From assembly GCA_020444265.1 (NCBI GenBank), contig JAHLLH010000001.1, forward strand, positions 496,001 through 560,000: a stretch of 64,000 bases of DNA. Reading direction: 5' to 3'. Below are positions 7,425-20,981 of the stretch, in pieces. The notes below the pieces were generated by a model. The model did not search any database. It saw only the letters and a list, made by a program, of their open reading frames with translations, and was not told the origin of the DNA. The stretch comes from a bacterium. GTDB lineage: Bacteria > Electryoneota > Electryoneia > Electryoneales > Electryoneaceae. The first letter of the stretch is position 1. Each line of letters starts with the position of its first letter. The translations under genes were made by a program, and so were the position numbers.

Positions 7425-8336
7425 TTACATCCAGTCGAGCAGACGTTCTGTCATCGCCTCAGCTTGGGAAATATGAGGCGCGTACCTCTGTTTCATTTCT
7501 GCTTGCAGCTGCACCCCTTCTGTATTGGACAACCGATGGGGAATCTGGTCGGACAGTTTCTTCAGAGGTACATCGAGAACGAACGGATGTGGAGAGATGC
7601 TTGATGCCAGTCCGATCAAAGCGGACTGAGCAGCAAACGTTCCTGTATAGTCCGGATCATGGTGATAACGGACCACCTCAGCAACTTCTTCGGGTATCCC
7701 CCATTTTAGCAGAAAATGGTATCCAAGTTCGGTGTGATCCATCCCGAGAATGTCACGCTCGTAGTCGAGGCCCCATTCTCCGACTTCTTCCGCAGTTTTG
7801 AGGATGGCATCCAGTTCTTCACCGAAATACTCGTCCATTACAATCCAGCCGATATTGTGAAGCAAACCTGCAACAAAAATATCAGGACCACTTTTAGCCG
7901 TCATCGCTTTGCGCAACTCAAGGCTTTTCGCCAGAAAACCTGTTGCCAGAGCGTGCGCCCAGATGTCTTTCCGCTGCAAATGACGTTCTTCCCATGCATC
8001 GAAAGAGTGAATTACACCCATCGATGTGCAGATGGTAACTAACATGTCCAGCCCGATGGTAACCAACGCCATATCGAGGCTGTTTGTTTTGCTTGCGCGA
8101 CCGTAATAGACGGAGTTTGCGACCTTCAGTACTTTTGCGGAAAGAGGTGGATCTGTAATAATCACCTGCTTGAGGTCTCGAACGCTGACATTGTCCTTCG
8201 TAGCCAGGTCCAGTACCTTCATAACAACAGCTGGCAAAGTCGGCAGATCTTCAAGTTCTTCCAGTTTGAGCAGAACCCTTTTTCGCAAGTCATTGACAAG
8301 TGAAAGATCATCCGAATTTGCCTGGGGGTCCATCAT
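7425..8336 (-). CDS. HDOD domain protein
   Basis: 303 aa. Most of the chain (~25-230) matches an HDOD domain: LPTLPAVVMKVLDLATKDNVSVRDLKQVI, DPPLSAKVLKVANSVYYG, and the later HNIGWIVMDEYF and HTELGYHFLLKWGIPEEV. HDOD proteins are HD-like but usually lack the metal-binding residues; they are found with signalling and chemotaxis genes and their biochemistry is mostly unknown. It follows the acidic 589-aa gene by 10 bp, with an AAGGAG site six bases before the ATG, so the two are one operon. A second HDOD protein lies in the che cluster at 14.1-15.0 kb. Confidence 0.85.
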   Translation of the reverse strand: MMDPQANSDDLSLVNDLRKRVLLKLEELEDLPTLPAVVMKVLDLATKDNVSVRDLKQVIITDPPLSAKVLKVANSVYYGRASKTNSLDMALVTIGLDMLVTICTSMGVIHSFDAWEERHLQRKDIWAHALATGFLAKSLELRKAMTAKSGPDIFVAGLLHNIGWIVMDEYFGEELDAILKTAEEVGEWGLDYERDILGMDHTELGYHFLLKWGIPEEVAEVVRYHHDPDYTGTFAAQSALIGLASSISPHPFVLDVPLKKLSDQIPHRLSNTEGVQLQAEMKQRYAPHISQAEAMTERLLDWM

Positions 8337-8346
8337 TTACTACTCC

Positions 8347-10116
8347 TTAATCTCTAAGGCTATCTTTCAGTTCAAGGAAAAACGTCTCACCAAGTTCGCT
8401 GTGCAGATCTAGCTTGCAGCGGAAAAACTCGTTCGCGATAAACTGCTTCGCGCGATTCCAGTCAGGTGCACCAGAAAGCTTGGCAAGGAAGACATCCAGC
8501 ATGGTTGCATCTCCCTCATACATCTCGCGAACAATTGTATCGCGCAGGTCACCTGATCTTAATTTCGCAAAGCGATCTCTGTCATCGCCCTGCGGAGAAG
8601 GTACAAAGACATCTTGCAGGCGGGTTTTCGGTTCCTCGTCCGACGCTGAGATGCTAGGTTCCGGGTTCGATTCTTCTTCAGAATCTCCCGGTTCTTCACT
8701 CTCCTCTTGGGACTCGTCAGGTCTATCCTCACTTATATCTTCGGCAGAAACATTCTCAACTTCAGTACTGACCAAATCTTCGTCACCCTTTGACTCGGCT
8801 TGTTCGAGTTGGTCATCATCTGCTTCGATCGTATCTTGCGATTCTTCAGTCAGGCCATTTTCTGAAGAGCCATTCTGCTCTTCCCAGTAACTGCGTGCAA
8901 CATCTGGTAGATCATCCTCGTCACCCTCACCGAACATGGAATCCAGTGCGTCCTTATCCTCGTCGGTTAATTCAACGTCCGGTGTCGCTTCAACTGGATC
9001 AGTGCTTACTTTGGTCTGCCTTTCTACTTCAGGATCATGTTCTTCTATGGAGCCTGAATCTCCCTCATCAGTAGTTGGTTTCAATTCATCCTCGAAACCA
9101 GAAGCATCCTTTTCCATCACGATGGGTGCTTCGCCATTAGCAGGTGATTCCTTTTCTAACTCTGAGTCAGACAGCTCTATCAATGATTCCTCTTCTTCTG
9201 TTTCGTCAGGCTCCGCATCAGTATTCACCGCCATCGACTCCAGACTATGATCGGTATCCTCATCAGCCCGGTCCTCTGTATCAGCGATGGATTGTTCGGA
9301 TGCTTCCGCATCTTCAGGCTTAGGCACAGCCTCTTCTATGGGTGGAATGGAATCTACTGGTTGGTCGACACCCGTTTCCTCTTCAGGTGGCTGCAAGCCA
9401 CCTTCCCGCCGGACGATCAAAGCGTACCGCTTCAGGATCCTGATCAGATCATCACGGCTGGCTGTTTCGACATCGACCTCAAGCTCTAGTTCAAGGGCTC
9501 GTGCCCATGTGCTGGCGCCACGTTTCTGAACCAGTGGAAGGAGATCAGGCAGCTTGATGGATGACTCGTCCCCAATTTCGAGCGTGTCGATTGCCTCGAT
9601 AACCGCATCTTTAGGGTGAGTCAAGGTCCAGGAATCGTAAGAATAGCGCATTCCTTTGAGAAAGCTGGTCTTGTCCAATCCAGCATCTGCTGGCAGATCA
9701 GCGTGTTTTACCACGGTGTCAACAAGGGATGTATTTTCCCCTGCATCCAGGTTCTGCATGATCTCATGCCAGGAGTAGGACGCGATTCGACGGTATAACC
9801 GAATGGCAAGTTTTTCGAATTCTTCTCCCGGTTGTGGAGGAAGTGCGTCATAGAAGTCTTCCACGACCCGTCGAACCTTGTCGCCAGGAAGCTTCCAGGC
9901 TTGCGCCATGGCGTCGACCATTTGACGGATTGCATCCTGGTGACTCAGGTCAAGAACACCTTCATTTGCAAAGGAATCCGCACGGCGAACTGCTTCATCT
10001 CTGGCAAAATTATCCAGTTGTATCCGGCAATTTTCGGGAAGGTCCTCCCAATCGACGGGCGAGATCAGCATCTCGTTGAGGTAGGTCTTCAACCAGGCGT
10101 CGATTTTTGCTTCCAT
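8347..10116 (-). CDS. Acidic protein of unknown function, upstream of HDOD gene
   Basis: 589 aa from the ATG at 10116, which has AGAAGG eight bases upstream; the frame extends 17 codons further but with no better start. Three parts are visible. An N-terminal alpha-helical domain (~1-245, beginning MEAKIDAWLKTYLNEML) seems folded. A central low-complexity stretch (~245-510) is extremely rich in Glu, Asp and Ser and is probably disordered. A C-terminal helical module (~515-589, ending LGETFFLELKDSLRD) follows. No signal peptide or TM, so cytoplasmic. I do not recognise any family. The folded-acidic linker-folded layout suggests a scaffold or adaptor; coupling to an HDOD gene suggests signalling. 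Both are inference. Confidence 0.7.
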   Translation of the reverse strand: MEAKIDAWLKTYLNEMLISPVDWEDLPENCRIQLDNFARDEAVRRADSFANEGVLDLSHQDAIRQMVDAMAQAWKLPGDKVRRVVEDFYDALPPQPGEEFEKLAIRLYRRIASYSWHEIMQNLDAGENTSLVDTVVKHADLPADAGLDKTSFLKGMRYSYDSWTLTHPKDAVIEAIDTLEIGDESSIKLPDLLPLVQKRGASTWARALELELEVDVETASRDDLIRILKRYALIVRREGGLQPPEEETGVDQPVDSIPPIEEAVPKPEDAEASEQSIADTEDRADEDTDHSLESMAVNTDAEPDETEEEESLIELSDSELEKESPANGEAPIVMEKDASGFEDELKPTTDEGDSGSIEEHDPEVERQTKVSTDPVEATPDVELTDEDKDALDSMFGEGDEDDLPDVARSYWEEQNGSSENGLTEESQDTIEADDDQLEQAESKGDEDLVSTEVENVSAEDISEDRPDESQEESEEPGDSEEESNPEPSISASDEEPKTRLQDVFVPSPQGDDRDRFAKLRSGDLRDTIVREMYEGDATMLDVFLAKLSGAPDWNRAKQFIANEFFRCKLDLHSELGETFFLELKDSLRD

Positions 10117-10289
10117 GAAAACACCTTCTGTTAAAGTGGAGTGCACTTCAAAGGAATGTTGGACCAAGTTGCTTGAAAGTACGATCTCCCTACTCCTCTG
10201 TAAAGAGGGAATTGGAAGATAAAAGTAAGACCCGGTCCCTTTTGCCTACCTCTCCGGCAGAAATCGCCTGCCTGGGCAGCCGTAACGAT
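10117..10289. other. Intergenic region between divergent units
   Basis: No ORF of note. It must contain the promoter of the minus-strand 589-aa/HDOD operon and the start of the plus-strand unit. A short hairpin (CTGC/GCAG, ~10269-10280) is present; no clear -35/-10 pair stands out on either strand. Confidence 0.35.
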
Positions 10290-12287: not shown

Positions 12288-12318
12288 AATAAACGCCCGG
12301 TTCAACCGGGCGTTTATT
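12288..12318. terminator. Bidirectional terminator between convergent genes
   Basis: AATAAACGCCCGG (12288-12300), loop TTCAA, CCGGGCGTTTATT (12306-12318). A perfect 13-bp stem whose AT-rich feet act in both directions; it separates the creatininase (plus) from cheX (minus). Confidence 0.85.
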
Positions 12319-12320
12319 CA

Positions 12321-12794
12321 TTATGCCTCAACAATTTTCATCGATATTTCCATGACAAATTCGATTCCATCAACTTTGAAAGGAACGACATATACAGGCG
12401 TTTCAATCTTGTGGGTGATTGAGTGTTGCCTACCCACAATCACTGAGGGAATTGAGATGTGGAAAGTCAATCCTTGTGAAGCGAAAACCGTCTTTGCACC
12501 ACCAGCCACGATGTTGCTGATTTCCCCGATGCTATCCTCGACGTCACGAGTGATTTCTGTTACTTCTTCTCCCGTCATGGCCGCGTACAACTTCAAGGCC
12601 GCTTCGGTCGGAAAACTAACCGCGACTGAACCAATGATATTGGCTTCAGCAAAACCAACCAGTCCTGTAATATCTCCCTGGGTCATTCCCTCGCCCTTCG
12701 GCGAGGGCTCGCCAGGTTCAGGATTCATCCCAAGCATCATCTCAAAAGTATTGATCAAAGAATTAATGAATGGGTTCAGGTATTGCAGATCCAT
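12321..12794 (-). CDS. cheX: Chemotaxis protein CheX (CheY-P phosphatase family)
   Basis: 157 aa, last gene of the che operon. The CheC/CheX/FliY phosphatase signature is visible as DSIGEISNIVAGGAK (Glu and Asn three apart, ~91-94), preceded by the acidic helix TGEEVTEITRDVE. CheX dephosphorylates CheY-P and ends the response. It lies 22 bp after the CheY-type gene. The C-terminal VVPFKVDGIEFVMEISM strands fit the fold. One motif copy is visible, as expected for CheX. Confidence 0.85.
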   Translation of the reverse strand: MDLQYLNPFINSLINTFEMMLGMNPEPGEPSPKGEGMTQGDITGLVGFAEANIIGSVAVSFPTEAALKLYAAMTGEEVTEITRDVEDSIGEISNIVAGGAKTVFASQGLTFHISIPSVIVGRQHSITHKIETPVYVVPFKVDGIEFVMEISMKIVEA

Positions 12795-12816
12795 GTCCTT
12801 ACTCCAGGCGACGTGA

Positions 12817-13176
12817 TCAACCGTTGATCACCTTTTCCACTTTTTCGATCAGCGTCTGTTTGCTGAATGGCTTCACGATGTAATCGTTTACACCCTGCTT
12901 CAGGGCTTCGATCACTTCTTCCTGGGCACCTTCCGTCGTAACCATCACAATCGGAACATTCCCAAAGGCAGGATTCTTGCGAATTTCCTTGACGAGACTC
13001 AAGCCGTCCATCACAGGCATATTCCAGTCTGTAAGAATCAGCTCAACACCTGCCATATTGGACAAAGCTTCCAGACCATTTCCGGCCTGCACAATGTCCT
13101 CGTAACCCGCGGTTTGCAGGTTGTTCACGATGATACGTCGCATGGTTGCCGAATCGTCAACAACGAGTACTTTCAT
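12817..13176 (-). CDS. cheY: CheY-type single-domain response regulator
   Basis: 119 aa, a bare receiver domain. Acidic pocket VVDDSATMRR (Asp8/Asp9), phosphoacceptor in LTDWNMPVMDG (~Asp55), Thr in MVTTEGA and Lys in VKPF (~103). Sequence and length match chemotaxis CheY, including TDWNMP. It lies between two CheC/CheX-class phosphatase genes, so fast signal turnover is expected. Whether it drives a flagellar motor, pili or something else cannot be told, since no motor gene is here. Confidence 0.9.
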   Translation of the reverse strand: MKVLVVDDSATMRRIIVNNLQTAGYEDIVQAGNGLEALSNMAGVELILTDWNMPVMDGLSLVKEIRKNPAFGNVPIVMVTTEGAQEEVIEALKQGVNDYIVKPFSKQTLIEKVEKVING

Positions 13177-13203
13177 CTTCCTTCCCCTGTCCTGTATCGA
13201 AAA

Positions 13204-13704
13204 TTATGCTTCAAGTCCGTCACCAACGAGGAGGACTGTCAACTTGTGACCCTCAACTGCATAATCGAGCCGTTCAATTGCAGTGCCACCGGGATCCACG
13301 TTCGAGTCCTTCGAGGATGTTCCTTTAAAAGGTACACCCAGCTCAAAGGAAGAGCTCCCCTCAAGGAAATTATTCATAAACTGGCCTGAAATCACGTTAG
13401 CCAGTTCAGCAACGGCATCCAACAGCATGCTTTCAGTTGGCTCTTCTTCGAGGAACCCATAGATTTGATCGGTTAGCATCGCGGCAAGCTCACGGGACAA
13501 GACAACCGTCAGGCCTCCTGAAGCGGGACGGACCAGTGGTATGCTCGCCCAGAATACTTCGTTTCTAGGATGGAGTTCGATCAACTCTGCCTCGGGGGGA
13601 GCATCTTCTCCGAGCGGCATGATCTCAACGAATGCCAGTGTTTCCAAGGACTGGGAAAGCGCTGATGACAGCGCAGCACATCGTCGGTTCTGATCACATC
13701 CCAT
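13204..13704 (-). CDS. CheX/CheC-like protein
   Basis: 166 aa from ATG 13704, which has GGAG nine bases upstream; a longer frame to 13878 only reads through the preceding gene. The core resembles CheX/CheC: LLDAVAELANVISGQFMNNFL carries Glu and Asn in the spacing of the phosphatase motif, after the helix MLTDQIYGFLEEEPTES. It overlaps the end of the upstream receiver gene by 11 bp, which suggests the receiver and this protein act as a pair. It is shorter and more divergent than the CheX at 12.3 kb; it may be a second CheY-P phosphatase or a non-catalytic relative. Confidence 0.7.
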   Translation of the reverse strand: MGCDQNRRCAALSSALSQSLETLAFVEIMPLGEDAPPEAELIELHPRNEVFWASIPLVRPASGGLTVVLSRELAAMLTDQIYGFLEEEPTESMLLDAVAELANVISGQFMNNFLEGSSSFELGVPFKGTSSKDSNVDPGGTAIERLDYAVEGHKLTVLLVGDGLEA

Positions 13705-14083
13705 CAGTAGCTCCGAAAATGGACTCGAGAGTTGTTGCCATGACTGCCGGTGAAATGGGTTTGGCAAGGATTGCCGTTGCTCCAGTCTGACGCAGCTGTT
13801 CTTCCTTTGGGGCATTCCCAGCACTAGTGATGACGACGAGCGGTAGGTTACTGTACTTGTCGTCTTTCCTGAGGACATTCAGGAGCTGTTCGCCATCCAT
13901 TTCAGGCATATTCAAATCGGTTAAGACGAGGTCTACTTGTTCGTTCCCAAGCAGAGTGAGTGCCTCTTTACCGTTTGAAGCTTCGTGAAAGGTGACATCC
14001 GGCCAGCCTGCAATTTCCACGCAGCGCCGAATCAGCATCCTTGCCATGGTCGAATCATCGACTATCAAGACTCGTTGCAGCAT
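13694..14083 (-). CDS. Single-domain response regulator (second CheY-like)
   Basis: 129 aa receiver: IVDDSTMARMLIRR (acidic pair), TDLNMPEMDGEQLL (phosphoacceptor Asp), VITSAGNAP (Ser at the Thr position) and LAKPISP (Lys). It differs from the other CheY in the TDLNMP motif and in a longer C-terminus. It lies 13 bp after the HDOD gene and overlaps the CheX-like gene. Two CheY-type proteins in one operon allow one to act as output and the other as a phosphate sink, as known in alphaproteobacteria; which is which is not visible here. Confidence 0.88.
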   Translation of the reverse strand: MLQRVLIVDDSTMARMLIRRCVEIAGWPDVTFHEASNGKEALTLLGNEQVDLVLTDLNMPEMDGEQLLNVLRKDDKYSNLPLVVITSAGNAPKEEQLRQTGATAILAKPISPAVMATTLESIFGATDGM

Positions 14084-14096
14084 CGCACAACCTGCC

Positions 14097-14954
14097 TTAC
14101 GCTATGATGAATTTTTCGATTTTGCTGAATTCATCAACGACATCCAGCATTAACGCTTCGATCCGCGATTTGTCCAGCGGGACAAAGGAGCGGTATCCCT
14201 CGTCCATGGAATAGGACAAGGTTTCAACACCAATTCCGTATCCGGCCATCCGAGCAATCATGTCAGCCACATGTACTGTGTAGATAAGAGCTCTAAGCTC
14301 TTCAGGTGCGGCAGAAGGATGGTGATGGTACTGTATGGTCGCTACAAGTCTTGGCGGCAGGTTCCATAACCTGGCCATTTCTGTTCCGACATCTGCATGG
14401 TTTGCACCGGCAGTGCCTTCCTCAGCATCCAGGAAGTCGTTTGCCTTCTGGCTATCGATCGACTCAACCAGTGTATCCATCTCACCAGCGAGATGATCGG
14501 AAAGAACACTCATCCCAATATCCATCAGCATGGCAGCGGTATACGCCTGATCGGGAGTGACTGCATTATTATCGATATGCAGAGCAACTTTTCGTGCAGC
14601 AATCGCGGCAACCAGGCAATGAGCCCAAAGCCCACCCTCTTCGCTGTCGTACCCCTGCAGCGGGCGGGTCAGCATGTCGCCAGTACTCGCACCTAAGGCA
14701 ATACTTGAAACGATGGTCTCACCGAGATGCATAACCGCACGCTGAACCGTGTTGATCTCATGACCTCGAGAAAAATAAGCCGAGTTAGCTACTCGAAGAA
14801 GACGTGCCGTGACATAAACATCATTCTCGACGATCTTGACAATGTCACGTAGCGAGTGATTCGGATCCGCCGTCAGCATGAGCAGCTTCTGGGCGACTTC
14901 CGAAATCATCGGCATGTCCTGGATCTGGTCCTGGATCGCTTTCGGCAGTTTCAT
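14097..14954 (-). CDS. HDOD domain protein within the che operon
   Basis: 285 aa from ATG 14954, which overlaps the cheD1 stop (ATGA); a GTG at 14963 is an alternative. HDOD features: ISEVAQKLLMLTADPNHSLRDIVKIVENDVYVTARLLRVANSAYFSRG, then HLGETIVSSIALG and HADVGTEMARLWNLPPRLV. Homologous in kind to the HDOD protein at 7.4-8.3 kb. HDOD genes are common next to che and type IV pilus genes in proteobacteria, where mechanisms are largely undefined. Tight coupling to cheD1 and the receiver implies a role in this pathway. Confidence 0.85.
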   Translation of the reverse strand: MKLPKAIQDQIQDMPMISEVAQKLLMLTADPNHSLRDIVKIVENDVYVTARLLRVANSAYFSRGHEINTVQRAVMHLGETIVSSIALGASTGDMLTRPLQGYDSEEGGLWAHCLVAAIAARKVALHIDNNAVTPDQAYTAAMLMDIGMSVLSDHLAGEMDTLVESIDSQKANDFLDAEEGTAGANHADVGTEMARLWNLPPRLVATIQYHHHPSAAPEELRALIYTVHVADMIARMAGYGIGVETLSYSMDEGYRSFVPLDKSRIEALMLDVVDEFSKIEKFIIA

Positions 14955-15436
14955 AATTCCCACTGCCCCCTTCCCGGGGATGAAATCGTCGTCTTTCCAG
15001 AGGACACATCAACAGAAACACTGCGACTGATCGAGCCGCCGAGGTCCTCCGCAATCGCACCCATGCGAAATCCCCAAAGAATTTTCTTGATCGCAAGGAT
15101 GTTTCGTTTACCAATATTGAATGTGTTGTTTGGATCCATAATGCTGGCACCACCAGTAAGCTTGACAGTCAGTCGACTATTGCCATCATAACCGACTTTC
15201 CGCATCGCTTTCAAGAGTGCGGGAATCCCAGTGTCCGCAAATGAACCCGGTTTATCCTGGGCTCTTTTCTGGTTAATCGATGAATCTGGAAGGGCAATGT
15301 GAAGCAAGCCTGCCCCACCTCCCTTCGGATCTCGTACGATAACTCCGACACACGATCCAAGCGCCATCGTCTTCAGAACGTGATTCGGGTTTCGAGAGAC
15401 GGCGAATTCGCCGATGCCCACGTAGATGAATTCCAT
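14951..15436 (-). CDS. cheD: Chemoreceptor glutamine deamidase CheD (catalytic residues intact)
   Basis: 161 aa. The thiol-dependent deamidase site is present: Thr23 and Cys29 in LKTMALGSCVGV, and His46 in GLLHIALPDS. VKLTGGASIMDPNN and NIGKRN are further family motifs. CheD deamidates glutamines in receptors and, in Bacillus and Thermotoga, also binds CheC. It lies 12 bp after cheB and overlaps the HDOD gene. This is the canonical one of two CheD genes in the operon. Confidence 0.92.
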   Translation of the reverse strand: MEFIYVGIGEFAVSRNPNHVLKTMALGSCVGVIVRDPKGGGAGLLHIALPDSSINQKRAQDKPGSFADTGIPALLKAMRKVGYDGNSRLTVKLTGGASIMDPNNTFNIGKRNILAIKKILWGFRMGAIAEDLGGSISRSVSVDVSSGKTTISSPGRGQWEL

Positions 15437-15448
15437 GTGACTGTCAAC

Positions 15449-16522
15449 TCACGCTGTTACGCGCAACAAGCGCATCAATTCGTCCGCCATCCGATCCAGC
15501 GGCACGAGTTTCTCAGCACCACCACGAGTATATGCTTCTTTCGGCATGCCGAAGACGACTGAACTTGCTTCATCCTGTGCCATCGTCCTGGCACCCGCTT
15601 CTCGCATTGTGACCATACCGTCAGCACCATCGGCCCCCATGCCAGTCAGCATAACGCCAATCGCATTACCAGCAGCATACTGAGCGACGGAACGAAAAAG
15701 AACTTCAACCGAGGGACGGTGACCACATACCTTCTCGCCACCTCGACAATGGACCTGATAGATGCCGCCGGAACGCTTCAGCTCCATGTGGTAATCACCA
15801 GGAGCAATCAGAACACGACCTGTCATTACGCGGTCACCAGATTGCGCCTCTTTGATTTCCATGGCACTCTGTTCATTCAGACGCTCGGCGAACATCTTTG
15901 TGAATCCAGCTGGCATGTGCTGCACGATTACTACTCCAGGGGTATCACCCGGAAGAGCGGTGATGACCTTGCGGATGGCTTCCGTACCACCGGTGGAAGC
16001 ACCGATTGCGATCACCTTGTCGGTCGATTCAGCTAGCGCATGGGATTTTCGGACCGGCTCTTGCTGTTTCGAAGGAGTAGACACAGCCCCACGTTCACGT
16101 TTCCAATGACTTACATCCGCCTTCGAAACCGCCTTCACTTTTGCACGAAGCTCACTGATCATCACACCCAGACCTCGGGCGACATCCGTACTGGGCTTCG
16201 TAACAAAGTCAACTGCTCCCGCCTCCATGGCTTCGAAGGTGATTTGCTTTCCTCGTTGAGTCAGTGCAGAAACCATCAACACTGGGAGCGGGTATTGCGG
16301 CATTAACTTTCGTAAAAATTCAACGCCATCCATCTTCGGCATTTCAACATCTAGGGTTAACACATCCGGTTTCAGCTGGACAATTCGATCACGCGCCACG
16401 TACGGGTCGGAAGCAGTTCCAACAACTTCAATCCCGGGATCAGACGATAGCCCACGTGAAAGAATCTCACGTACCAGGGCGGAATCATCGACAATTAATA
16501 CGCGAACCTTGCCCGTGCTCAC
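15449..16522 (-). CDS. cheB: Protein-glutamate methylesterase/deamidase CheB
   Basis: 357 aa. N-terminal receiver: VDDSALVREILSRGL and TLDVEMPKMDGVEFL with the phosphoacceptor Asp, KPS at ~110. After a linker (~130-165) comes the methylesterase: IGASTGGTEAIRKV (catalytic Ser), VIVQHMPAGFTKMFAERLN (His) and MLTGMGADGADGM (Asp). It removes methyl groups from receptor glutamates when phosphorylated by CheA. The start overlaps the cheR stop by 4 bp, so methylase and esterase are made together. Confidence 0.95.
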   Translation of the reverse strand: MSTGKVRVLIVDDSALVREILSRGLSSDPGIEVVGTASDPYVARDRIVQLKPDVLTLDVEMPKMDGVEFLRKLMPQYPLPVLMVSALTQRGKQITFEAMEAGAVDFVTKPSTDVARGLGVMISELRAKVKAVSKADVSHWKRERGAVSTPSKQQEPVRKSHALAESTDKVIAIGASTGGTEAIRKVITALPGDTPGVVIVQHMPAGFTKMFAERLNEQSAMEIKEAQSGDRVMTGRVLIAPGDYHMELKRSGGIYQVHCRGGEKVCGHRPSVEVLFRSVAQYAAGNAIGVMLTGMGADGADGMVTMREAGARTMAQDEASSVVFGMPKEAYTRGGAEKLVPLDRMADELMRLLRVTA

Positions 16523-17358
16523 CGTACCTCCTTGCGATAAATGGCAGGTTTTACATAGCTATACAGCTCATTATTCCGTCCCAGGGTCTCAGAATGGCCA
16601 ATGAAGAGATAACCATCCGGATCCGTAAATCGGTGGAACTTCGTCACCAGAGTATCCCGTGTTGGTTTATCAAAATAAATCATCACATTCCTGCAGAGGA
16701 TAAACTGGAAACTTCCTTTAAAAGGGAATTCTGGACGCATCAAATTCAACTTGCGATGGATCACCATCTTTTTTAGCTCGTCGTGTACTTCCCATTTGCC
16801 ATCGCGCAAGTTTTTAAAATGCTTGTTCTTCATTGCGGCTGGCAGATGGCTGATGTTCTCGTCCGTGTAAACCCCAGCAACCGCCTTTTCCAGTGCTGAT
16901 ATTGAAACATCCGTTGCAAGAATTCCAAGGTCCCAGTTCTTGAGATCAGAACCGAGTAACTCCTTCAGGATGATAGCAATCATGTAGGATTCTTCACCGG
17001 ACGAACAGCCTGCGACCCAAATGCGCATTTGCTTCTTCCCTGACCGCTTTTTACGCTCGATCCACTCAGGGAAGGCATTTTCTCGCAAATAATCGAAGTG
17101 GTCATTCTCGCGATTAAAAAATGTATGGTTGGTCGAGATTCGATCGACCAAGGTGCTGACCGCCTCACCACTTTTGTCATTTTTTACGTAATTGATATAA
17201 TCCTGAAAGGAGGAAAACTTGTTCTCGCGCAGGATTTTACTGAGCCGTCCCATTACCAAGGCACGCTTTTGATCTGTCAGGTTGATGCCGAACATGGAAT
17301 AGACCAGATCACGGATCTGCTGAAATTCCTTGTCCTTCAACTGAAGTGAATCGTTCAC
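16519..17358 (-). CDS. cheR: Chemotaxis protein methyltransferase CheR
   Basis: 279 aa. N-terminal helical CheR domain (~10-85), then STNHTFFNRENDHFDYL and the SAM site IWVAGCSSGEESYMIAI, later ILATDVSISALEKA and FILCRNVMIYFDKPTRD. It methylates receptor glutamates with S-adenosylmethionine. The C-terminus lacks TPR repeats. It lies 26 bp after cheD2 and overlaps cheB. Sequence is standard throughout. Confidence 0.95.
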   Translation of the reverse strand: MNDSLQLKDKEFQQIRDLVYSMFGINLTDQKRALVMGRLSKILRENKFSSFQDYINYVKNDKSGEAVSTLVDRISTNHTFFNRENDHFDYLRENAFPEWIERKKRSGKKQMRIWVAGCSSGEESYMIAIILKELLGSDLKNWDLGILATDVSISALEKAVAGVYTDENISHLPAAMKNKHFKNLRDGKWEVHDELKKMVIHRKLNLMRPEFPFKGSFQFILCRNVMIYFDKPTRDTLVTKFHRFTDPDGYLFIGHSETLGRNNELYSYVKPAIYRKEVR

Positions 17359-17384
17359 GTCGTCTCCATCCGGAAATGATCGGC

Positions 17385-17906
17385 CTATTCTTCAGGCCTG
17401 CGAAGGGACGGGTCCATTGGGAACCAGTCGCTCTTTCGAATCTTTTCCACCTTGGCGATCACAAGTTCGCCAGTACTTGTGTTAAACAGGACTTTCCTGC
17501 CGTGACGTCCACCAACTTCCTGCCCGGCTATTGGTATGTTGTAGTGCTCCAGCATCCGCATCGCTGCTTCGATGTTTAACTGGGCCATCTCCCGGATATC
17601 ATCGTCGGCATCTTCTGGAACAGCCCCTCCGATGACGTGAGCTTCCAGGTGATCGAGGTCTGCATCCGACTGCCGGAACATTCGGATCAGCTGCACCATC
17701 GCAGGTCTAGCATAGATCGCGGTTGGCTGAACCTCCGGTCGCAGATGAGGATAAACAAAGTGGTTCATCCCCCCTATCTCACCTTGTCTGTCAAACAACG
17801 TTACAGCAACACTCGTCCCCAATACGGAGAGAATGACTGTGGGATCAACTGTAAAAAAGATGAACCCGGGTTTCAAATGATACTCGCGGTAGCCCGCCTG
17901 GTTCAT
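17385..17906 (-). CDS. CheD-family protein with catalytic Cys replaced by Ser
   Basis: 173 aa. Clear CheD family: HLKPGFIFFTVDPT at the N-terminus, the active-site segment SVLGTSVAVTLFD, GGMNHFVYP with the His kept (49), then LEAHVIGGAVPEDADDD. In active CheD the segment reads LGSCV with a Cys nucleophile; here it is LGTSV, with Ser32 at that position and Ser rather than Thr a few residues before. Thiol chemistry is therefore lost, and the protein is more likely a binding or regulatory relative. The ATG at 17906 has only a weak ribosome site; it is 58 bp after cheW. Canonical CheD is supplied by the gene at 15.0-15.4 kb. Confidence 0.8.
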   Translation of the reverse strand: MNQAGYREYHLKPGFIFFTVDPTVILSVLGTSVAVTLFDRQGEIGGMNHFVYPHLRPEVQPTAIYARPAMVQLIRMFRQSDADLDHLEAHVIGGAVPEDADDDIREMAQLNIEAAMRMLEHYNIPIAGQEVGGRHGRKVLFNTSTGELVIAKVEKIRKSDWFPMDPSLRRPEE

Positions 17907-17964
17907 GGATCTCAGACTCGCTGTGGCAGTGCCAATCCTGCTTCAGCACGACCAGTGAAACGTG

Positions 17965-18495
17965 CTACTCCTGGATGGACTCCATGATCTGCTCCATCTC
18001 ATCCTCAAAGAGGAGGCGATGGATATTGAGGATGATCTTTACAGATTCCCCAACCTTGCCCAGACCCTGGATATAACGGCTGCCGCCACTTCGATTTACC
18101 CTCGGAGGGCCTTCAATGTCCTCTCCGGGTATATCAAGAACTTCCGACACGCTATCGACGATGAGACCTACCGACGTACTGTTGATGTTTACAACAATAA
18201 TGCATGTACGCTCATCATACTCACGTTCGGGCAATTCGAAACGGATTCGCACATCAATAACTGGAATCACTTTTCCGCGGAGATTGATCACACCCTTAAC
18301 AAAATTCGGTGTATCAGGCAGATCGGTAACCTTTTGAATGCCGATAATTTCAGTTACGTAACGGATCTCGATCCCGTATTCTTCCTTGGCGATCTGGAAG
18401 GTCAGGTACTTTCCTTCCTGAGTGTCTTCTTGCTCTTCGTACCCGTTGAATCCGTCTTCAGCATGCAACATTTGGTCGCTCATCTTACCCCTCAC
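17965..18495 (-). CDS. cheW: Chemotaxis coupling protein CheW
   Basis: 176 aa. N-terminal ~25 acidic residues, then a CheW SH3-like domain: YLTFQIAKEEYGIEIRYVTEIIG, TDLPDTPNFVKGVINLRGKVIPVIDVRIRF and LIVDSVSEVLDIPGEDIE. It links CheA to receptors. The start overlaps the cheA stop by 4 bp (ATGA). The C-terminal acidic tail (LLFEDEMEQIMESIQE) is slightly longer than usual. Sole CheW in the window apart from the CheW-like domain of CheA. Confidence 0.95.
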   Translation of the reverse strand: MRGKMSDQMLHAEDGFNGYEEQEDTQEGKYLTFQIAKEEYGIEIRYVTEIIGIQKVTDLPDTPNFVKGVINLRGKVIPVIDVRIRFELPEREYDERTCIIVVNINSTSVGLIVDSVSEVLDIPGEDIEGPPRVNRSGGSRYIQGLGKVGESVKIILNIHRLLFEDEMEQIMESIQE

Positions 18496-20981
18496 TCTGC
18501 GTGTTCTTTCACGCCATCTTTATCAATCTGGTGCTCACCAACCGTACCGCTGCCGGCACCTGAGCTGTTGTGCGAATTGCCAATCACCCCTGCGATATCG
18601 AGAATCAAGCTGATGTCACCGTCACCGAGAATAGTGCACCCGGAAACACATGGGTGATTTGCAACAAATCCTGACAACCCTTTAATAACAACTTGCTGCT
18701 GGCCAATTAACTCGTCGACAAGCAGGCATATCTGACGCCCTTCGTTCTCGACGACTGTGATGATACCGTCTTCCAGACGCTTGACGTCCGTCTCGACTTC
18801 CAGCAGTTTATGTAGACGGATCACCGGAATCAGCTGTTCTCGAATCCGTAGAATCTCCTGCCCATCCATCGTTTCGGTCACCATTTCTGGTGTCGCTTGA
18901 ATGGATTCCTTGATCGCAGTAATCGGCATGGTGTAGCGTTCTTTACCTACACGGATGATCATGCCATCGATAATCGCCAGTGTCAGCGGTAGACGCAGGA
19001 CAACTTCCGAACCCTTTCCCTCCCAACTGCGAATATCGACTTTACCGCGGATGTTTTCGATATTCCGGCGGACGACATCCATGCCGACCCCTCGGCCGGA
19101 CACGTCGGTAACCTTCTCTGCTGTCGAGAAACCCGGCTGAAAGATGAACTGCCAGACCTCTTCATCCTTCAGCGATTCCGGATCACCCTCAAACAACCCA
19201 CGTTCACTGGCACGTTTGACAATCCGTTCACGATTCAGACCACGGCCATCATCCTTCACAGAGATCCAGACTTCACCACCAACGTATTTTGCTTCCAACG
19301 TCAGTTTGCCAGTCGGCTCTTTCCCTTCCTGTCCGCGGTCTTCGGGTGTTTCCAAGCCATGGTCAATCGAATTGCGAATGATATGAATCAGGGGGTCAGT
19401 AATCTGTTCGATCACTGTTTTGTCAACTTCCGTCTCTTCGCCCAGGATGATAAAATCAACTTTTTTTCCAGCCTTCTGGGAGAGGTCACGGACGAGACGA
19501 ACCATTCGACGGAAGGTGCCTGACAAAGGAATCATTCGGATTGAGGTCGCCACGTCCTGCAAGTCTCGCGTGATCTTCTCGAGTTGCATGGCGGACTTTT
19601 CAAACCTTTCCAGAGGTATGTCCAGTGACCTGATGTCGGGGTTCTGAGAAACCATCGCCTCTGCAATCACCAATTCTCCAACCAGGTCAAGCAGAATGTC
19701 GAGCTTCTCGACATCAACCCGGACAGATTGGCGCTGAACATTTTTCTTCGCTGGTTGTGGCTTCGGCGTCGGTTTGATATCCTTGGCTGTCGCTTTTAGT
19801 GGCCCAGAAGGCTTTTCCGGAGTTTTTGATGCAGCTTCCTGTTTTTTCTCTTCTGTCACCTTTGCTTCGGGCTTTTTGGAGTCGGAGGACGGCATATCCT
19901 CGCTTTTCGGCTCTTCTTTTTCGGGCGTTGGAGGAGGTGGAGCAGCTGGCTTGCTTTCAACTTCTTTTTCAGGCTGCTTAGCGGGTGCCTTTGCCTTTGC
20001 ACCACTGAAATCTTCTAGCAGGTGAATCAGACCAGGTGTCGCAGGGATATCAGCGGATTTCCCTGACGACAATGAGTTCATTGCATTCCGCAAGAAGTCA
20101 ATGATCTCAAGGATGAGGTTGATCACTTTAGAAGATGGCGAAAGTCCACCACCGCGGAACTGTTCAAGCACCGATTCGGCGCTGTGACTAAGCTTCTCCA
20201 TATCTTTCAGACCAAGGAAACCCGAGTTCCCTTTAAAACTGTGGAACGCTCGGAAGGCCTGCTGTACATGTTCTGTGTTGGTTGGATCATTCTCCAGCGA
20301 AAGAAGGGCTTCTTCAGCCTTTTCAAGATTTTCCTCACCCTCGCTGGTGAACTGTTTGATAATCTCCGGCCCCATGGACAGCTGGAACTCTTCCAGGTCC
20401 ATGGCAACTGTGCCCGCTTCGCTGTTCACAGAGGCGTTTGATCCGGCTTCCTCCTGGACTTCTTCAGGTTCTGTTGCTTCAGCGGCATTTTCTTCTTGAT
20501 CACCCTCAGGAACAGGTGCCGAGGTCGGCTCAGTGTTACCAGGATTCTTGAGTGCCTGGATGGTTTCCTTCAACTGTTTCGTTACCTCAGCTGCATCCTC
20601 CTCGTGACCACCATCATGGAACTCAGTTTCGATCTGCTCAATCAGTTCACGAATGAAATCGCATGCACGATTCATCAAGTCAATGTGATCGGCGGTTAGC
20701 TGAGCTGTTCCTTTGCGGAACATATCGAGGAGTGTTTCCGCTTCGTGGGTAACACCACTAATGGTGTGCAGATTAAGGAATCCTGCTCCACCCTTCAAAG
20801 AATGGAACAGCCGGAAGACGGTATTAACCATCTCCAGGTCGATGGCGCCCTGTTCATCAGCGGACCGTTCCAAGTCAACAAGCAACGGTTCCACCTCATC
20901 GAGCATCTCACGACCTTCCTCTACGAAGCCGAGGAGGATGTCTCGCTGTTCCTGATCGCTTGAGAATCCGTCGTACGACAA
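18492..20981 (-). CDS. cheA: Chemotaxis histidine kinase CheA with two HPt domains
   Basis: 829 aa. Order: HPt1 (~10-120, His60 in FRLFHSLKGGAGFL), acidic linker, HPt2 (~195-320, His247 in FRAFHSFKGNSGFL), Pro/Lys/Glu-rich linker (~325-415), P3 dimerisation helices (~418-500), HATPase P4 with N box HIIRNSIDHGLE (533-544), G1 DDGRG and G2 GRGVGMDVV, then the P5 CheW-like regulatory domain. No separate P2 domain is evident; HPt2 takes its place. The start is TTG with AAGAGG six bases before; no ATG is near. First gene of the eleven-gene operon. Both HPt histidines look functional, so two phosphate outlets or a relay are possible. Confidence 0.95.
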   Translation of the reverse strand: MSYDGFSSDQEQRDILLGFVEEGREMLDEVEPLLVDLERSADEQGAIDLEMVNTVFRLFHSLKGGAGFLNLHTISGVTHEAETLLDMFRKGTAQLTADHIDLMNRACDFIRELIEQIETEFHDGGHEEDAAEVTKQLKETIQALKNPGNTEPTSAPVPEGDQEENAAEATEPEEVQEEAGSNASVNSEAGTVAMDLEEFQLSMGPEIIKQFTSEGEENLEKAEEALLSLENDPTNTEHVQQAFRAFHSFKGNSGFLGLKDMEKLSHSAESVLEQFRGGGLSPSSKVINLILEIIDFLRNAMNSLSSGKSADIPATPGLIHLLEDFSGAKAKAPAKQPEKEVESKPAAPPPPTPEKEEPKSEDMPSSDSKKPEAKVTEEKKQEAASKTPEKPSGPLKATAKDIKPTPKPQPAKKNVQRQSVRVDVEKLDILLDLVGELVIAEAMVSQNPDIRSLDIPLERFEKSAMQLEKITRDLQDVATSIRMIPLSGTFRRMVRLVRDLSQKAGKKVDFIILGEETEVDKTVIEQITDPLIHIIRNSIDHGLETPEDRGQEGKEPTGKLTLEAKYVGGEVWISVKDDGRGLNRERIVKRASERGLFEGDPESLKDEEVWQFIFQPGFSTAEKVTDVSGRGVGMDVVRRNIENIRGKVDIRSWEGKGSEVVLRLPLTLAIIDGMIIRVGKERYTMPITAIKESIQATPEMVTETMDGQEILRIREQLIPVIRLHKLLEVETDVKRLEDGIITVVENEGRQICLLVDELIGQQQVVIKGLSGFVANHPCVSGCTILGDGDISLILDIAGVIGNSHNSSGAGSGTVGEHQIDKDGVKEHAE

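Follow-up and report, generated by a model that had tools for sequence, protein, structure and literature searches.

An eleven-gene chemotaxis operon with doubled parts and a linked CheD–HDOD pair in a flagellated bacterium of the Electryoneota

We analysed a stretch of 64,000 nucleotides (the window: positions 496,001 to 560,000 of contig JAHLLH010000001.1, assembly GCA_020444265.1) from a bacterium of the Electryoneota, in which eleven co-directional che genes lie on the minus strand at positions 12321–20981. We consider it probable that they form the only chemotaxis operon of a bacterium with flagella, with a second branch made up of a stand-alone receiver, Rec2, and an HDOD protein; most likely the operon steers swimming as usual. 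While the base function, flagellar chemotaxis, is thus ordinary, the composition is less so: CheD and HDOD are a linked pair in this lineage, and it is this link that constitutes the new lead.

Results

The ten other operon proteins together and CheA separately were scanned against Pfam, a match above the curated cut-off being counted as a family match. All eleven pass, with E-values from 1.3e-7 (the second CheX) to 4.8e-66 (CheB). In the direction of transcription the operon encodes the kinase CheA (18492–20981, 829 amino acids, two Hpt domains by Hpt counts and alignment), the coupling protein CheW (17965–18495; PF01584, E 6.7e-40), whose true start is probably the ATG near 18482, a protein of CheD fold termed CheDa (17385–17906), the receptor methyltransferase CheR (16519–17358), the methylesterase CheB with receiver and esterase domains (15449–16522; also above the NCBIfam cut-off), a second CheD, CheDb (14951–15436), with catalytic Cys and His intact according to motif and alignment, the HDOD protein (14097–14954; PF08668, E 2.8e-50), Rec2 (13694–14083), the divergent CheX-type protein CheXb (13204–13704), a motor-type CheY (12817–13176) and the CheX phosphatase CheXa (12321–12794; Pfam E 3.5e-21, with phmmer matches to CheX structures). 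Coordinates and Pfam matches therefore confirm the eleven-gene operon that a preliminary description of this DNA had placed here, and CheA, CheW, CheY, CheR, CheB and the core domains of flagellar chemotaxis are all present. Measured from the sequence with the long CheW start, neighbouring genes overlap by 4 bases (CheA–CheW, CheR–CheB, CheDb–HDOD) or 11 bases (Rec2–CheXb), or are separated by 58 (CheW–CheDa), 26 (CheDa–CheR), 12 (CheB–CheDb), 13 (HDOD–Rec2), 27 (CheXb–CheY) and 22 bases (CheY–CheXa). The upper value of the spacing given before (4–58 bp) holds, but the range begins at an 11-base overlap. Eleven related functions packed this tightly are not a product of chance.

The host genome (4.33 Mb in 19 contigs, 94% complete) contains one H-kinase_dim match, which is the window CheA, and three CheW-domain matches, namely the window CheA, the window CheW and a second CheW on contig 11 beside a methyl-accepting chemotaxis protein (MCP), i.e. 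two stand-alone CheWs. The preliminary description noted an absence of receptors and of flagellar or pilus genes; MCPs and FlhA do lie outside the window, but within the genome, and the suggestion that receptors are encoded elsewhere was borne out by six MCPs on four other contigs (4, 11, 16 and 18), with Cache, PAS, protoglobin and HAMP among their domains. All six (in loci L046, L047, L071, L072 and L073) share the same kind of tail, DFxxF, in one case with five residues beyond it, and the tail recurs on all five relatives' MCPs inspected, at least three of them operon-borne. C-terminal receptor tails of this kind dock CheR and CheB, and because the tails are shared, the receptors sited elsewhere in the genome look cognate. 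An acidic stretch around DFxxF is common to the host's six MCPs and the operon-borne MCPs of family f6. On contig 11 (L046:4975-12482) the second CheW, an MCP and a receiver-containing protein are grouped, perhaps as a receptor-specific input unit.

A flagellar cluster lies about 13 kb past the window on the same contig, with FlhA at 601 kb (the window covers 496–560 kb). Around FlhA, Pfam matches identify flagellin, FliM, a FliN-type protein, FliG, FliO, MotA, MotB and a sigma factor, as well as a ParA-type protein and an export ATPase. The N-terminus of FliM reads MNRILSQDEIDALL, which we take to be the known CheY-binding peptide. To this local picture a comparison of genomes can be added, comprising 39 of the same phylum (own genome included) and 61 in the full set. 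Within the phylum FlhA is present in 18 of 18 genomes with CheA and in 16 of 21 without (Fisher p 0.05), and in the full set in 25 of 27 with CheA versus 17 of 34 without (Fisher p 0.0006), both tests being uncorrected for phylogeny. A non-flagellar pathway as the main function, which the preliminary description had considered, is not supported and was rejected on the single CheA and the flagellar cluster on the same contig; the tracking of FlhA by CheA in the phylum likewise speaks against it. Many flagellated relatives (family f2 and others, the 16 genomes just mentioned) appear to be devoid of a chemotaxis kinase; weaker MCP domains occur at G007:C4:46747 and G029:C4:95598, in genomes with no CheA found.

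The operon is conserved in relatives. Members of the same family and of family f6 show the order CheA-CheW-CheR-CheB-CheDb-HDOD-Rec2-CheXb-CheY-CheXa, complete or partial depending on where their contigs end; single genes are absent in some relatives (CheY-CheXa after CheXb in G003, CheW in G005), and the f6 operons carry an MCP between CheW and CheR. G013, from a third family, has the same eleven gene kinds with CheB, CheX and CheY reordered and CheA split between contigs. Among the matches listed are 80 named CheA loci, a sample in which a Desulfuromonas (L074) and a Desulfuromonadales locus (L075) show the run CheA-CheR-CheB-CheD-HDOD-Rec2-CheXb-receiver-CheX, and the CheD-HDOD part also occurs in L079, L082, L083, L084 and L116. 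The gene set is thus found again elsewhere in the phylum and, almost complete, in Desulfuromonadales.

CheD and HDOD form a linked pair. HDOD adjoins CheD on the same strand, mostly overlapping it, in 18 of 18 same-phylum loci of CheDb type, versus one of nine CheD loci from other phyla (G042), so the link belongs to certain lineages and not to CheD in general. Two loci fetched via the fusion search (G235, G326) also have adjacent CheD and HDOD genes. Full-length CheD–HDOD fusions are encoded in five of 386 genomes (own, G001, G003, G023 and G381). The one of our host, 450 amino acids long, is located far from the operon on contig 2 (104.0–105.4 kb, L181:9038-10390) and retains the CheD Cys and His as well as a full HD motif. 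In G023 and G031 a two-gene CheD–HDOD unit stands alone, with about 7 kb around it free of other che genes; neither assembly (drafts, 91 and 86% complete) yielded a CheA, by domain or full profile, or an MCP, and FlhA is present in both. G001 (a 92% complete draft) combines a CheD–HDOD fusion with FlhA; its CheA profile search gave a 60-position kinase-like match only, and no MCP was found in that assembly. Genes of che type are not fully absent from such genomes, as there are three CheX matches in G001 and one in G031. The phylum has three CheD-positive, CheA-negative genomes, and each of them has CheD next to HDOD or fused with it. In G023, Asn replaces the His of the orphan CheD and Ser replaces the Cys of the fused one. 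G381 has three CheAs in addition to its fusion. CheD is a receptor deamidase and CheC partner; HDOD proteins, to our knowledge, recur in motility regulation with no clear biochemical job. In the literature searched, no paper named both HDOD and CheD.

The two CheDs of the operon differ in their active site. CheDa reads LGTSVAVTL where the intact CheDb reads LGSCVGVIV, with Ser at the position of the catalytic Cys and the His present; the phmmer alignment of CheDa with Thermotoga maritima CheD (2f9z) spans the Cys motif, and the same structure is the best Foldseek match (E 4.5e-10) of its AlphaFold model (mean pLDDT 76.5, 5 sequences). From its motif CheDa is predicted to be a pseudo-enzyme beside an intact CheD, so the two deamidases claimed earlier are reduced to one. 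The catalytic Cys is absent in four of 62 distinct CheDs (the window, G004, G013 and a Desulfobacula), and the G013 protein has also lost the His. All four share a clade of seven (bootstrap 100, SH-aLRT 96) in which the other three keep the Cys, so the number of changes required is at least three. In the window, G004 and G013 the CheDa gene lies between CheW and CheR. A recent tandem duplication of CheD was ruled out, as a tree of CheDs places CheDa on one side and CheDb on the other; the doubled parts noted before are indeed present, but as distinct lineages.

The divergent CheXb (Pfam E 1.3e-7) shows the CheX fold and the ExxN signature: its AlphaFold model (mean pLDDT 82.1, 9 sequences) matches CheX structures in Foldseek, ExxN is kept in both CheXa and CheXb, and the Pro of the signature is conserved in CheXb. 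A third CheX is encoded outside the operon, on contig 11 at 184.3 kb. CheY has the two N-terminal Asp, the phosphoacceptor Asp and the equivalents of Tyr106 and Lys109; Rec2 has the Asp and Lys, with Ile at the Tyr106 position. In a receiver comparison that rests on the Asp, Tyr and Lys columns, Tyr106 is found in 16 of 16 CheY rows, and Rec2 has Ile or Val there in all eight rows of family f1, f6 and Desulfuromonadales. Rec2 is the neighbour of CheXb and CheY that of CheXa, and in relative G003 HDOD and Rec2 are one protein. These doubled parts, together with two intact Hpt domains, suggest two branches, CheY–CheXa (motor) and Rec2–HDOD–CheXb; a second, non-motor branch through the receiver–HDOD pair is possible. 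The HD doublet of the window HDOD is degenerate (MLMDI), but loss of the doublet was rejected as characteristic of HDODs in such operons, as most relatives' operon HDODs keep it, in an alignment count that leaves out one Desulfuromonas HDOD.

In CheA the two Hpt domains are followed by dimerisation, ATPase and CheW-like domains; Pfam gave no match to a P2 domain. H60, K63, G64 and H247, K250, G251, which include the phosphoacceptor His of each Hpt domain, are invariant across 14 aligned CheAs. The window CheA and those of 15 of 17 same-phylum relatives have two Hpt domains each; contig ends truncate the remaining two CheAs. In a tree of CheA cores (98 rows, quick method, SH-aLRT without bootstrap) the window CheA groups with same-phylum rows in a ten-row clade (SH-aLRT 99), near Desulfuromonadales, a spirochete and a planctomycete (SH-aLRT 87); all these rows join Bacillota CheAs (SH-aLRT 99) in a tree that holds no class-labelled reference CheAs. 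Family f4 of the same phylum forms a separate clade with delta-proteobacterial HDOD clusters, so two CheA lineages carry the HDOD module. A strict association of this module with two Hpts was ruled out, as five delta-proteobacterial HDOD clusters have one Hpt match. Membership of the class of alternative cellular functions (ACF) was judged by a missing flagellum or a further, flagellar CheA; here FlhA is present and CheA single, which speaks against that class.

At the 3′ end of the operon, a putative terminator-like hairpin with a T-rich tail was read by eye on the minus strand at 12290–12314. Elsewhere in the window, a 606-amino-acid acidic protein with no Pfam match (8347–10167) is followed by a further HDOD protein (7425–8336). 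The former also stands directly after the che operon in G005 (L050:3683-5413) and may belong to the che system.

Discussion

Starting from the parts and their conservation, the receptors, the flagellar genes and the CheD–HDOD and HDOD–Rec2 fusions, all of which were observed directly, we infer the following phosphotransfer and binding steps and a separate Rec2–HDOD branch. The six receptors encoded elsewhere would drive CheA via CheW and would be adapted by CheDb together with CheR and CheB, the latter two bound to the conserved tails of the receptors. Phosphate from CheA would pass to CheY, which would act on FliM at the flagellar motor until CheXa strips the phosphate. In the second branch, CheA would phosphorylate Rec2, which would act alongside the HDOD protein and be returned to its resting state by CheXb. 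CheDb and HDOD would function as a physical pair, and CheDa, its Cys lost, might bind receptors or CheD partners without deamidating them. The preliminary description had named a flagellar cluster, together with a tree placement in a standard flagellar class with the same gene set, as the outcome that would speak against it; the cluster does exist elsewhere in the genome, but the gene set departs from the standard.

Several observations weigh against this reading. Some 55 kb separate the operon from the flagellin gene, and no sigma-28-like promoter was found upstream of cheA (best score 10, the level of shuffled sequence, versus 14 for fliC as positive control), so sigma-28 control of the operon was dropped. 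Two of the 27 CheA-positive genomes of the full set are without FlhA. Rec2 of the f4 and delta-proteobacterial branch has Tyr106 in eight of ten rows (Cys and Phe in the others) and, judged by this residue, may also meet FliM. A PilT-family match is present in 61 of 61 genomes, own included, which gives no contrast and leaves pili as a possible further target. Finally, about 93% of multi-Hpt CheAs are of the ACF or type IV pilus class according to excerpts of PMC10542144, which makes a two-Hpt CheA on the Bacillota side unusual. Together with the fact that HDOD is no classical motor part, the Hpt domains, the PilT-family ATPases and the missing sigma-28 site would fit an ACF or type IV pilus pathway with HDOD as its main output (gene expression, cyclic di-GMP or pili), the flagella being steered otherwise or not at all. 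We regard this as quite improbable: no other CheA is there to run the flagellum, CheA is found only with FlhA in the phylum, motor-type residues are kept in CheY and the CheY peptide in FliM, and CheA stands with the Bacillota CheAs, outside the outer clade of Helicobacter and Acidobacteria rows.

Other explanations concern the added parts. It is conceivable, if doubtful, that these serve damping, with Rec2 as a phosphate sink, CheXb speeding turnover, CheDa competing with CheDb for receptor glutamines and HDOD as a scaffold only; the missing motor-contact Tyr in Rec2 of this lineage, the CheDa fold kept with its Cys lost and the ExxN motif in both CheX proteins are consistent with it, but the HDOD–Rec2 fusion and the orphan CheD–HDOD pairs point to a more specific role of HDOD. 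As for CheDa, excerpts of PMC3513319 report that CheD of Bacillus subtilis acts more through binding than through deamidation, the two having been split by point mutants, so a naturally Cys-less CheD could plausibly serve as a binder. CheDa might accordingly activate receptors by binding and be pulled off by a phosphatase, as in the CheC–CheD loop of Bacillus. We find this unlikely, and dropped the loop itself, as the only CheC match found in the genome is a cross-match within CheXa; moreover, the Met-Phe of the CheC contact reads Val-Pro in CheDa and Ile-Met in CheDb in our alignment. With a naturally Cys-less CheD next to an intact one, the operon sets the enzymatic role of CheD apart from its binding role.

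Within the preferred reading, a chemotaxis operon with an added Rec2–HDOD branch, the CheD–HDOD pair deserves attention of its own. Tentatively, and with more doubt than confidence, we propose that it is a signalling module in its own right, in which CheD binds or modifies HDOD instead of, or besides, chemoreceptors; it would be linked to CheA through Rec2 and CheXb in che operons and would run free of CheA and receptors in some flagellated relatives. If so, one partner of CheD is not a receptor, and CheDs lacking the Cys or the His are regulatory, non-enzymatic forms. Conserved, in some genomes fused and in others orphan, the pair provides HDOD with a candidate partner.

Among known systems, the F1 class of flagellar chemotaxis in Bacillota has in common with the operon CheD, a CheC/CheX-type phosphatase and, judging by the tree above, the CheA lineage; the operon differs from it in two Hpt domains, the absence of CheC, the added HDOD–Rec2–CheXb and the added Cys-less CheDa. 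With the CheC–CheD adaptation system of B. subtilis it shares a role of CheD beyond deamidation, but here an intact CheD is accompanied by a separate Cys-less one, and no CheC was found. By description it also resembles the 'group alpha' che clusters of Geobacter, which in the excerpted text of Tran et al. 2008 (PMC2577667) are reported from Geobacteraceae only and comprise cheA, cheW, cheB, cheR and a stand-alone HD-domain protein with no mcp. Those excerpts speak of an HD and not an HDOD domain, the window operon has CheX, a second receiver and a second CheD that the group alpha text does not give, and the Geobacter sulfurreducens cluster has a sigma-28 site, unlike what we found here. The Desulfuromonas and Desulfuromonadales loci (L074, L075) differ in that no CheW or CheDa was found and one more CheX is present; they nevertheless share with the window operon the run from CheA through CheD, HDOD, Rec2 and CheXb to a receiver and a CheX, and at least two Hpt matches in CheA.

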